A DNA stretch of 64,000 bases from Phytoactinopolyspora limicola. Lineage in GTDB: Bacteria > Actinomycetota > Actinomycetes > Jiangellales > Jiangellaceae. Shown piece by piece: positions 59,086-63,310 of the stretch. The stretch's first letter is position 1; the number at the start of each line of letters is the position of its first letter. The DNA lies in contig NZ_JAAOEN010000005.1 of assembly GCF_011320225.1 (NCBI RefSeq), forward strand, positions 161,515 to 225,514, written 5' to 3'. The notes beneath the pieces are model-generated. The model was given only the letters and a program-made list of their open reading frames with translations. It had not been told where the DNA came from and searched no databases. Made by a program: the position numbers and the translations under genes.

Positions 59086-60069
59086 TCACTTCCAACGGGC
59101 GAGGGCGCGCCGGAGACTACGTTCGTCGCTCAGCCCGCATACGCGCGCGACCTCGGTATATGTGGCCCCCGTTGACAGCATCTCGTGAGCGCGATCGCGG
59201 CGCAGCGCGTCGACCAGAGCCTGGAACGTGGTTCCCGCCTCCGCGAGACGGCGGCGCAGCGTGCGTTCGCTGACATGGAACCTGCTCGCGATGGCCGGCA
59301 TGGTCGGCGCTTCGTCGAGATGTAGGGAGATCGACCGCTCCACCTGTGCGACGAAGCCGTGTATCTCATGCCGCGCTGCTACCTCGTCATCAAGGAGCCT
59401 GCGCATCTTCCGATGACAGAACCGGTCAGCGGTGGGCAGCGGGGTACGCAGGACGTCGGCGGGGATGACGAGCCGGGAGGCAGCACTCTCGTACGTCGCC
59501 GCCGCTCCGAAGAGGTCGAGGAGAACCGCACTGTCGTCGGGTGGCGGGAAAGCGAACTCTGCCTCGATCGGGGCGGGCACGCCGGGAGGGAGGCCAAGGC
59601 CGAGGCTCAGCATCCCGGCGATGCTGGCGAACATCTCTTCGACCACGAAGCGGCTGACGTCTTCGAGTCCAGGTAGCGGCTCGGTGGTGAGAACGAGAGC
59701 GCCCTGATCGTCGTGTGTGTGGAGTTCGGCGAGTGGCCCGGCGAGCGAACGGTAGCGGAGACCGACGCTGACAGCCTGCTCAACATCGTCCGCGGCTACC
59801 ATGGCCAGGCCCAGCACCCCCCACGTCGTCAGCGTCTGTCCGGCACCGATCAGCAGGCCCAGATCGGGGCGTGCGGTGGAAGCCAGCGCGCACCGCAGGA
59901 AGACCCGCGCCTGTCGCACGGTGACCCGCAGCTCAGGCACATCGAGCGATGGACGGGTTATGCCCGCGGCGCTGAGGGCGTCGGCCAGATCCCACCCCGA
60001 CGCGGCGGCGAGGCGATCTGTGATTCGCACAAGCTCGGCATCTGCGGTCGCCGGCTCCATGGTGCTCAT
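59086..60069 (-). CDS. AraC-family regulator with arabinose-binding-type (OruR-like) N-terminal domain
   Basis: The 327-residue protein has an N-terminal Arabinose_bd domain (ARVFLRCALASTARPDLGLL, then TWGVLGLAMVAADDVEQAV) and a C-terminal AraC helix-turn-helix (TMPAIASRFHVSERTLRRRL, then EVARVCGLSDERSLRRALAR). This is the OruR/VirS type. The gene is divergent from the FMO-SDR fusion gene, with a TACCTA dyad between, so it most likely controls that enzyme. Start 60069 is ATG; the open frame runs on to 60411 without coding quality. Confidence 0.88.
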   Translation of the reverse strand: MSTMEPATADAELVRITDRLAAASGWDLADALSAAGITRPSLDVPELRVTVRQARVFLRCALASTARPDLGLLIGAGQTLTTWGVLGLAMVAADDVEQAVSVGLRYRSLAGPLAELHTHDDQGALVLTTEPLPGLEDVSRFVVEEMFASIAGMLSLGLGLPPGVPAPIEAEFAFPPPDDSAVLLDLFGAAATYESAASRLVIPADVLRTPLPTADRFCHRKMRRLLDDEVAARHEIHGFVAQVERSISLHLDEAPTMPAIASRFHVSERTLRRRLAEAGTTFQALVDALRRDRAHEMLSTGATYTEVARVCGLSDERSLRRALARWK

Positions 60070-60140: not shown

Positions 60141-60158
60141 TACCTAAATTGCTAGGTA
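60141..60158. promoter_or_regulatory. TACCTA-N6-TAGGTA dyad in the AraC/FMO-SDR divergent promoter
   Basis: The six-base arms are perfect. The site lies 24 bases before the FMO-SDR start and is part of a short A/T-richer patch. It may bind the divergent AraC protein, though AraC proteins more often bind direct repeats, so a different repressor is possible (the TetR gene at the right end is one candidate). Confidence 0.4.
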
Positions 60159-60181
60159 ACTGGGGATAAGGAGCATCTTCA

Positions 60182-62500
60182 ATGAAGAGACAATCTTGTG
60201 ACACAGAGGCCGTCGTTCCACAGGGCGTGGCCGCTGAAGCCCGGACGGTCGGCGTGTGCATCGTGGGCGCGGGCCCGGCAGGACTGGCGGCGGCCAGGGC
60301 GTTACGTGCACACGGTGTGCCGTATGAGCACTTCGAGCGGCACGACCGGGTGGGAGGCATTTGGGACGTCGAACGGCCCGGCGGGCCGATGTATGACTCG
60401 GCGCACTTCATCTCCAGCAGGACACGTTCAGGTTTCCACCACTTCCCGATGCCCGACGACTATCCGGACTATCCGAGCCACCGCCAGGTGTTGACCTACG
60501 TCGAGGACTTCGCCCACTCTTTTGGGCTTCTCGACGCGGTCTCATTCGGCGTCGAGGTCCAACGGATCACGTCCTCCGCGGACGGCTGGCTTGTTGAAAC
60601 CTCCCCCGTCGACGGTTCCGAGCCACCGACTGTCCGCCACTACCGAGCGGTGATCTGCGCAAGTGGCGCGCAGTGGTTTCCCCGCATCCCGGACTCCCTA
60701 GACGGGTTTACCGGTGAACTCATCCCGGGTCGGGATTACCGCAATCCCGACCCGTTCATCGGAACCAGCACTCTGGTGATCGGGGCTGGAAACTCCGGGT
60801 GCGACATCGCCGTCGACATTGGGCGGGTGGCGAACCGCTGCGCCCTGAGTCTCCGGCGCGGATATTGGTTCATCCCGAAGCACATCTCAGGCGTGCCAAG
60901 TGACACTCTCGACGACGGGTTGGAGTGGATCCCTCGGCGCCTGCGCCGGTTCCTCTCCGAGCTCACGCTCCGGCTCGTCGTGGGAGATCTGCGCAGATTC
61001 GGCTTACCCAAACCGGACCATCGGCTACTCGACTCACACCCGACCGTGGGCACACGCATCCTTGACTCGCTTGCTCACGGAGACGTCGTGGCGCGGCCAG
61101 ACATCCGGCGGGTGGAGGGCCGAACCGTGGAGTTCGTCGACGGCAGGAGAGAGGAATTCGATCGGATCATCGCCGCCACCGGATACGAGCCCCGGGTGCC
61201 CTACGCCAAAGGTCTCATTACCAGCATCGACGAGGACGAACTGTACCTAGGAACGTTCTCGCGCCGACATCGCAACCTCTTCGTCCTTGGCCTCAATGAG
61301 AGCAACTCCGGGGGGTTCATGCTGTTCGACGAGGCGGCATCCATCGTGGCGCAGTACGTCGTCAGTCAGGATCGCGATCCGTCCCGCGCCGCCCGATTCG
61401 ACGAACGGATCGCGCACCACCACCCCGACCTGCTCGGCGGACTTCACCTGTCCTCCTCGCCAAGGCACCAGGGTTATGTCGACTCCGGTGCCTTCGTCCG
61501 GGCTATCCGAAAGACCCTCGGAGACATGGGGTGGGTAGGAGCTGACCAGGAACCCAATCGATCCACCGAGGGCGGCGGCCCGGTGCGGGAACGCGGCGAT
61601 CTCCGGGGTGAGGTCATCGCCCTGACCGGCGCAACCGGCGGGCTCGGCGCCCACGTTGCCCTGCGGGCCGCGGCACGCGGTGCCACGATCATCGCGATCG
61701 ACGTCGACCTCCACAGGCTGGAACATCTCGTCCGTACCCTTCCGGCCGAGGATGGCCAGAAACATCGCGCCATCGTGTGTGCCGACCTCGCGGATCCGGT
61801 GGCGGTTGAACAACTTGCACAGGAACTCATCGCCCTGCCGAAGCTGGATGCTCTCGTCAGCAACGCAGGGATGGCCATCGGGGGCGAGATAGACGACCGC
61901 ACCGATGAAGATCTGAACCGAGAGATCCGCGTCAACCTCGTCGCGCCGCTGCAACTGACCCGCTCGGTGCTGCCGCGACTGCGCGCTTCTCAGCGGCCAC
62001 GGATCGTCTTTACCGGCTCGCTGGGCGGCGTGATAGCGATGGGAACCGATCCGATCTACGCGGCAAGTAAGTTCGGCCTCCGAGGCGCGGCTCTCTCGCT
62101 ACACCTCGCGTTGCGCCGGGAAGGAATCGCCGTGTCCATCGTGCAACCGTCAGCCATCGACACGCCGATGCTCGAACGTGAGGCAGCAATCGGAGCGGAG
62201 CCGTCGCAATTCATCACCGCTCCGCAGACCCCGGACGACGTCGCCGGTACGGTGATCCGCGCACTGATCTCGCCTCGCCCCGAGACGTACCCGCAACGTC
62301 TCGACGGCTTGCTCGCCCGGGTGGCGATGCTTGCCCCGAACATGCTTCCCGGGCTGACCCGGTTCGCGGATCGGCTCGGGCGCCCCGGTCTCGAACGCTA
62401 CCGTGCACGAATGCGGCAGCGGGGCAGGCAAACGGCACCCGACCAGGTCAGTGGTAACCCATTGACCCGGCAGGGACAAGCCGGGGTCAACTCAGGATGA
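60182..62500 (+). CDS. Fusion protein: flavin-containing monooxygenase-like domain plus short-chain dehydrogenase domain
   Basis: The 772-residue protein has an N-terminal FMO-like part with the FAD motif VGAGPAGLAAARA (residues 28-40), FPMPDDYPDYPSH and a second dinucleotide motif VIGAGNSGCDIA (about 198-209). The FMO/BVMO fingerprint FxGxxxHxxxW/Y reads FTGELIPGRDY (176-186), so the His is Pro182. From about residue 472 an SDR domain follows: TGATGGLG (482-489), SNAGMAIG and Tyr626-x3-Lys630 in YAASK. An FMO/BVMO plus SDR could oxidise an alcohol and a ketone in sequence. AAGGAG precedes the ATG. Confidence 0.87.
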   Translation: MKRQSCDTEAVVPQGVAAEARTVGVCIVGAGPAGLAAARALRAHGVPYEHFERHDRVGGIWDVERPGGPMYDSAHFISSRTRSGFHHFPMPDDYPDYPSHRQVLTYVEDFAHSFGLLDAVSFGVEVQRITSSADGWLVETSPVDGSEPPTVRHYRAVICASGAQWFPRIPDSLDGFTGELIPGRDYRNPDPFIGTSTLVIGAGNSGCDIAVDIGRVANRCALSLRRGYWFIPKHISGVPSDTLDDGLEWIPRRLRRFLSELTLRLVVGDLRRFGLPKPDHRLLDSHPTVGTRILDSLAHGDVVARPDIRRVEGRTVEFVDGRREEFDRIIAATGYEPRVPYAKGLITSIDEDELYLGTFSRRHRNLFVLGLNESNSGGFMLFDEAASIVAQYVVSQDRDPSRAARFDERIAHHHPDLLGGLHLSSSPRHQGYVDSGAFVRAIRKTLGDMGWVGADQEPNRSTEGGGPVRERGDLRGEVIALTGATGGLGAHVALRAAARGATIIAIDVDLHRLEHLVRTLPAEDGQKHRAIVCADLADPVAVEQLAQELIALPKLDALVSNAGMAIGGEIDDRTDEDLNREIRVNLVAPLQLTRSVLPRLRASQRPRIVFTGSLGGVIAMGTDPIYAASKFGLRGAALSLHLALRREGIAVSIVQPSAIDTPMLEREAAIGAEPSQFITAPQTPDDVAGTVIRALISPRPETYPQRLDGLLARVAMLAPNMLPGLTRFADRLGRPGLERYRARMRQRGRQTAPDQVSGNPLTRQGQAGVNSG

Positions 62501-62539: not shown

Positions 62540-63310
62540 TCAATTCGGGCGGACGGTAAGGATCTGCGAAACGGTTCCGACTGGCCCCTGGATGTCGTAG
62601 ATGACGCTGCTGGTCAAACCCAGGCCGTGAGGTCCGAAGGAGACGGTGGTGTCGAAGCCGATCCACTCCCCACGCGGCTGGGTGAACAGGTGCGCCGTCA
62701 GGTCGAGGTTGGGGAAGGCCACGTCGTTCGGCGAGACTCGCACGGCCATGCCGTTGGCGGCGTCGAATAGTCCGGCGGCGCTGGCCAGCGGGCTGACGTC
62801 CTCGCCGTGGATGAGCGCGAGCGGGGTCCGTACCCAGTACGCGGCACGCCCTGGGCCGGACTCGACGCGACGCACGTCTGTGGAGGCGATGAAGCCGCCT
62901 TGCCACACTGTCAACGGATCCCACACCGGCATGGCGTCCGGCGGTGGGATCGCTGGAAACGCCGACCCCTCGATTCCGGCGGTGTCTCCCGGTCGCATAA
63001 GCCAGGCGCGCAGCAGGACGGCGTCGCGCCCGTCATGTGCGAGAGCGGCCTCGACGAGTTCAATGGTGCGGCCTGGCCGGACGACCTTGACCGTGATGTC
63101 GACGACATCGATCGGGATGGTGCCGAGGATGTCGTAGGAAAGCCGGCCGATCACGAGGTCATCGCCCCGGCGGTGGTCGCGGTCGAGTTCCATGGCATGG
63201 GCCAGCAGGCCGAAGGCGGGTGCGATGTGCTGGAATTCGGGGTCCCACGCTCCGCCGACGTGGTCGGTCGCCTGGAAGCTCGACTCTCCAGTCCGCTTGA
63301 AATAGGCCAT
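62540..63310 (-). CDS. Thioesterase-family protein (TesB-like double hotdog)
   Basis: The 256-residue protein has two hotdog halves: FQATDHVGGAWDPEFQHIAP, with GRLSYDILGTIPIDVVDITV in the first, and MAVRVSPNDVAFPNLDLTAH, with WIGFDTTVSFGPHGLGLTSS in the second. This is the actinobacterial acyl-CoA thioesterase (4HBT_3/TesB) type. It converges with the FMO-SDR gene and could hydrolyse an acyl-CoA in the same or another pathway. Confidence 0.82.
   Translation of the reverse strand: MAYFKRTGESSFQATDHVGGAWDPEFQHIAPAFGLLAHAMELDRDHRRGDDLVIGRLSYDILGTIPIDVVDITVKVVRPGRTIELVEAALAHDGRDAVLLRAWLMRPGDTAGIEGSAFPAIPPPDAMPVWDPLTVWQGGFIASTDVRRVESGPGRAAYWVRTPLALIHGEDVSPLASAAGLFDAANGMAVRVSPNDVAFPNLDLTAHLFTQPRGEWIGFDTTVSFGPHGLGLTSSVIYDIQGPVGTVSQILTVRPN

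Follow-up and report, generated by a model that had tools for sequence, protein, structure and literature searches.

A fused flavin monooxygenase and short-chain dehydrogenase in Phytoactinopolyspora limicola matches a recurrent operon pair and carries an altered hinge motif

Results

The window, by which we mean the whole stretch of 64,000 nucleotides of Phytoactinopolyspora limicola DNA analyzed here, contains a single open reading frame of 772 amino acids on the forward strand (60182–62500), with a well-matched AAGGAG ribosome-binding site (60168–60173) before its ATG start. Pfam assigns an FMO-like domain (PF00743, E 1.9e-39) to residues 25–356 and an adh_short domain (PF00106, E 1.4e-38) to residues 478–666. 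The open frame and these two domains uphold the original prediction that one chain joins an FMO-like domain to a complete short-chain dehydrogenase (SDR). On the basis of Pfam, motifs and a structural model, the class B flavin monooxygenase (FMO) domain extends over residues 22–451 or so (60245–61534, forward strand), and Pfam, motifs and a phylogenetic tree place a classical SDR domain at about residues 475–720 (61604–62341, forward strand). Both dinucleotide motifs of the FMO half are intact (GAGPAG at 29–34 and GAGNSG at 201–206), and it also keeps ATGY at 332–335. The SDR half has the TGxxxGxG cofactor motif as TGATGGLG (482–489) and a full catalytic tetrad of N585, S613, Y626 and K630; the predicted Tyr626 and Lys630 are indeed present, both in the IYAASKFG stretch that starts at residue 625. 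At 17 of 64 columns conserved among its orthologues the SDR half has a different residue, and its substrate may therefore differ from that of its relatives.

Upstream lies a divergent AraC-type regulator of about 327 amino acids (59086–60069, reverse strand), recognized by its Arabinose_bd and HTH_18 Pfam domains and by neighborhood comparison. Homologues of this regulator sit beside or near the FMO gene in six other loci (L009, L010, L011, L024, L060 and L066). The divergent intergenic region contains an inverted repeat, TACCTA-N6-TAGGTA (60141–60158, no strand), a predicted candidate operator; this is its only copy in the window, and 100 shuffles gave 0 matches even when one mismatch was allowed. 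An aldehyde dehydrogenase (ALDH) gene lies next to or near the FMO gene in seven loci (L009, L010, L011, L012, L024, L066 and L103). No ALDH gene was found beside the fusion in the window, where the downstream neighbor is a convergent acyl-CoA thioesterase-like gene (62540–63310, reverse strand). One of the ALDH loci, from Aeromicrobium (L012:5842–12485), combines FMO and ALDH without an SDR orthologue and continues with genes resembling a four-carbon sugar acid kinase and a PdxA-like dehydrogenase.

The two halves of the fusion recur as neighboring genes in other bacteria. A scan of genome contigs returned 22 loci. In Mycetocola and several Demequina the gene directly downstream of the FMO homologue (about 43–49% identical) encodes a stand-alone SDR, which shares about 40% identity with the SDR half of the fusion. 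Across the genomes searched and a Burkholderia ambifaria plasmid, 18 loci have an SDR orthologue on the strand of the FMO orthologue and at most about 150 bp away (L009, L011, L024, L013, L017, L018, L020, L027, L031, L033, L039, L060 and L100 to L105), the hosts being Mycetocola, Demequina, other actinomycetes and the B. ambifaria plasmid NZ_CP152372. In three Demequina loci (L014, L021 and L023) the SDR gene is found about 2.8–3.2 kb downstream of the FMO gene. The B. ambifaria plasmid is conjugative and carries genes for AraC, FMO, SDR and a protein resembling Mpo1, a 2-hydroxy fatty acid dioxygenase, in a row (L060:8615–12565), which hints at a lipid-like substrate. Phylogenetic trees place the SDR of the window with the paired SDRs (98% SH-aLRT) and apart from seven further SDRs encoded in the same genome, and the FMO inside the clade of paired FMOs (support 96%), where its end branch is the longest of a 27-row clade (0.93). 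The open reading frame is thus a fused version of a recurrent, uncharacterized operon pair. This pairing makes joint action of the two halves likely and strengthens that part of the original prediction, which had proposed a built-in pair of alcohol dehydrogenase and ketone monooxygenase; its Baeyer-Villiger step and its self-supply of NADPH fared less well, as described below.

Within its clade the fusion is found in one draft assembly only, and a domain search for the same fusion elsewhere, as had been suggested, recovered no other fused member of the clade in about 1,600 genome searches, whose samples overlap. The search did recover a second, unrelated FMO–SDR fusion in another genome (G376, L063:6432–8612, reverse strand). 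Its FMO and SDR halves both belong to other clades, which rules out a common origin.

At the junction (61523–61606, forward strand), as defined by comparison with relatives, the FMO C-terminus DMGW (448–451) is followed by the linker VGADQEPNRSTEGGGPVRERGDLR. An in-frame GTG (Val468, 61583–61585, forward strand) lies where the free SDR relatives begin and could be a former or internal start. Read in frame +1, the sequence has a TAG stop immediately behind MGW, near the point at which the FMO proteins of the relatives usually end. In those relatives the stop of the FMO gene and the start of the SDR gene are in different frames and typically overlap or are only a few bases apart. Relative to these gene pairs the fusion therefore needed an insertion or deletion and not merely the loss of a stop codon. 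Codon-usage scoring favors the fusion frame along nearly its whole length, junction included, with a small margin near the short linker. Frameshift joining of two genes had been named as what would refute the original prediction: codon usage favors one continuous frame, but a single indel would make or undo the fusion. We read the fusion as an evolutionary indel, bearing in mind that a one-base error in a 40-contig draft would look identical.

The motif FxGxxxHxxx(Y/F) between the two dinucleotide motifs defines FMOs (PMC10682829) and its region, the hinge, is treated as a class hallmark (PMC10682829, PMC9044951). In the fusion this fingerprint reads FTGELIPGRDY (residues 176–186; 60707–60739, forward strand), with Pro182 in place of His. 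An alignment of 76 distinct sequences, the window counted, has His at this position in 75, the window being the sole exception, and the extended set has it in 85 of 85 other distinct FMO homologues, 63 of which belong to the clade marked by SAH[FL]ISS. The predicted substitution is thus real, and Pro182 is not a family trait but is singular to the window among the 86 compared sequences. Codon usage shows no sign of a local double frameshift as its origin. Columns in which at least 95% of 46 non-redundant members of the clade agree were defined as near-invariant (61 columns). The FMO half departs at four of these (H182P, R196S, V197T and N290G), including Ser196-Thr197 (60767–60772, forward strand), which replaces a near-invariant Arg-Val ahead of the NADPH Rossmann strand in the alignment of relatives. 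Three of the four departures sit in the hinge that connects the FAD domain to the NADPH domain (hypergeometric p about 0.001, counted post hoc). In its rate of departure the window ranks fourth, against a mean of 2% elsewhere, with three other homologues changing as many or more columns; the FMO half is no overall outlier in this respect. Because the FMO half retains its core motifs and its changes concentrate at the hinge, general decay of this half is disfavored.

Modeling of the FMO half (mean pLDDT 79, pTM 0.81) yields the double-Rossmann fold of FMOs, and the best PDB matches of this model are DiatB and then ancestral FMOs (E 8e-35). The closest solved structure is DiatB 8z12, at 31–32% identity and a TM-score of 0.75 by query length. 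In the full-length model the SDR half has a pLDDT below 55, and the SDR alignment rows are partly misaligned. Asn57 of DiatB, the residue mutated in 8z16, aligns with Ile77 of the window, and Ile occupies this position in 55 of 76 sequences. The whole clade carries SAH[FL]ISS (60398–60418, residues 73–79) where FMOs have the motif that contains the catalytic Asn. In mFMO, mutation of the equivalent Asn abolished activity (PMC10682829); the chemistry of a clade without this Asn may accordingly differ from that of ordinary FMOs, independently of Pro182. The original prediction also described the domain as BVMO-like. The type I Baeyer-Villiger monooxygenase (BVMO) fingerprint [A/G]GxWxxxx[F/Y]P[G/M]xxxD (PMC4498894) does not match the segment GGIWDVERPGGPMYD (58–72), which is without [F/Y]P at the required place, and FxGxxxHxxxW[P/D] does not match FTGELIPGRDY, which has Pro at the His position and Tyr at the Trp position. 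Together the two fingerprints rule out a type I BVMO identity. Among the papers available to the search, none dealt with natural FMO–SDR fusions or with DiatB.

As a rule of thumb, an Asp after strand beta-2 of an SDR marks an NAD-type enzyme. Asp507 of the fusion lies after beta-2, the same Asp is present in 13 of 13 non-redundant orthologous SDRs, and the SDR half is probably NAD-dependent. R225-R226 of the FMO half is invariant (46 of 46 clade members) and falls in the region of the Arg-Thr pair of mFMO (PMC4220118), a regional match in which residue equivalence is putative. An NAD-type Asp507 alongside an Arg pair fitting NADPH weakens the idea of internal NADPH recycling and with it the proposed self-supply of NADPH, although some FMOs accept both cofactors (PMC4220118).

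Discussion

Our preferred interpretation, to which we give an even chance, is that a conserved operon pair has naturally fused into a bifunctional enzyme that carries out consecutive oxidations of one substrate and whose FMO hinge has been remodeled. We envision a scenario in which the FMO domain would oxygenate a compound with FAD, NADPH and O2, and the SDR domain would interconvert an alcohol and a carbonyl of the same compound with NAD(H). Fusion would provide equal amounts of both domains and could keep the intermediate near, while recycling of cofactor between the two domains is not expected. The divergent AraC-type regulator most likely controls the fusion. An ALDH gene is next in line in several relatives, which suggests a catabolic sequence. 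Judging from the alignments, the altered hinge (H182P, R196S and V197T) probably leaves oxygenation in place with a changed rate, coupling or substrate range, or reduces it. We infer the reaction order, substrate, cofactor use, hinge effect and regulation in this model. That the protein is a bifunctional natural FMO–SDR whose oxygenation remains productive although the class-defining His of the hinge is gone, the hinge having been remodeled alongside a fused SDR partner, is a more specific proposal that we would consider improbable.

Several other explanations merit comparison with this model. The FMO half could have lost productive oxygenation along with the hinge His and its neighbors and persist in a scaffolding or NADPH oxidase role, with the SDR as the active enzyme. 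A residue found in all 85 other homologues and belonging to a class-hallmark motif (PMC10682829, PMC9044951) would then have been given up by the protein with the longest end branch of its 27-row clade, and the change of four of 61 near-invariant columns, against a 2% mean elsewhere, points the same way. However, the FAD motif, the NADPH motif, the Arg pair and ATGY are all intact, and in three other homologues at least as many columns are altered, and we regard this loss as somewhat unlikely. It is improbable, in our estimation, that the fusion is a one-base assembly or sequencing error and that there are really two separate genes, side by side and translationally coupled like those of the relatives. 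In the relatives the two genes do overlap or abut and are read in different frames, the frame +1 TAG right after MGW lies beside the G-rich run GGGGTGGG, no second fused member was found and the genome is a 40-contig draft; against this, the junction is open in frame 0 with coding-like codon usage, contains no homopolymer of five or more, and has a linker whose length fits the tail of an FMO joined to the start of an SDR.

Two further possibilities concern the chemistry. If the FMO oxidized a nitrogen or sulfur compound and the SDR handled the carbonyl product, the nearest solved structures, DiatB and N- or S-oxidizing FMOs, would be natural relatives, and such chemistry is typical of FMOs (PMC7570161). 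Yet the clade has the Ile of SAH[FL]ISS and not the Asn57 of DiatB, and it was mutation of this Asn that abolished the activity of mFMO (PMC10682829); this alternative appears quite unlikely to us. A self-sufficient alcohol-to-ester enzyme, in which the SDR makes NADPH and the FMO performs a Baeyer-Villiger step on the ketone, would resemble engineered ADH–CHMO fusions, which operate in this way (PMC5624969). The clade-wide Ile77 where FMOs have Asn is also suggestive, since Leu or Ile is found near the flavin in Baeyer-Villiger-active FMOs, with the equivalence of that position to Ile77 being putative (review PMC10682829). With Asp507, kept in all orthologues, predicting NAD for the SDR and with type I BVMO fingerprints that the sequence does not match, we judge such an enzyme very unlikely. 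We continue to favor the model of a fused operon pair acting in consecutive oxidations.

As a Rosetta-stone fusion, this protein links an uncharacterized recurrent operon pair and offers a testable functional tie for about 18 loci. With Pro in place of His, it also provides a natural experiment on a class-hallmark residue. Should the fusion prove active, nature would have its own equivalent of the dehydrogenase–monooxygenase fusions engineered for biocatalysis.

Comparison with known systems indicates that these are known enzyme kinds in a fused variant, with a hinge unlike that of every sampled relative, and not a new kind of system. The pairs of Mycetocola, Demequina and B. ambifaria NZ_CP152372 share orthologous halves, gene order and strand with the fusion, and those of Mycetocola and NZ_CP152372 also have an AraC-type regulator; they differ in consisting of separate genes, usually overlapping or abutting, and in keeping the fingerprint His. 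DiatB (PDB 8z12–8z17), a flavin-dependent monooxygenase, is closest to the FMO half by sequence and fold but is without an SDR and has both the fingerprint His and Asn57, where the clade of the window has Ile. The G376 fusion has the same domain order and both Pfam domains in one chain; its fingerprint, FDGEQIHAHDY, contains the His, and since both of its halves come from other clades it represents an independent event. In Mycobacterium tuberculosis, VirS is a regulator of the AraC type and the MymA operon includes an SDR. In the VirS–MymA regulon the regulator gene adjoins a flavin monooxygenase operon, as in the window, but MymA is a type I BVMO encoded in a seven-gene operon without a fusion (PMC13234193). 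Finally, the engineered ADH–CHMO fusions likewise place a dehydrogenase and a flavin monooxygenase in one chain, but they are man-made, NADP-matched and built on a true BVMO (PMC5624969).
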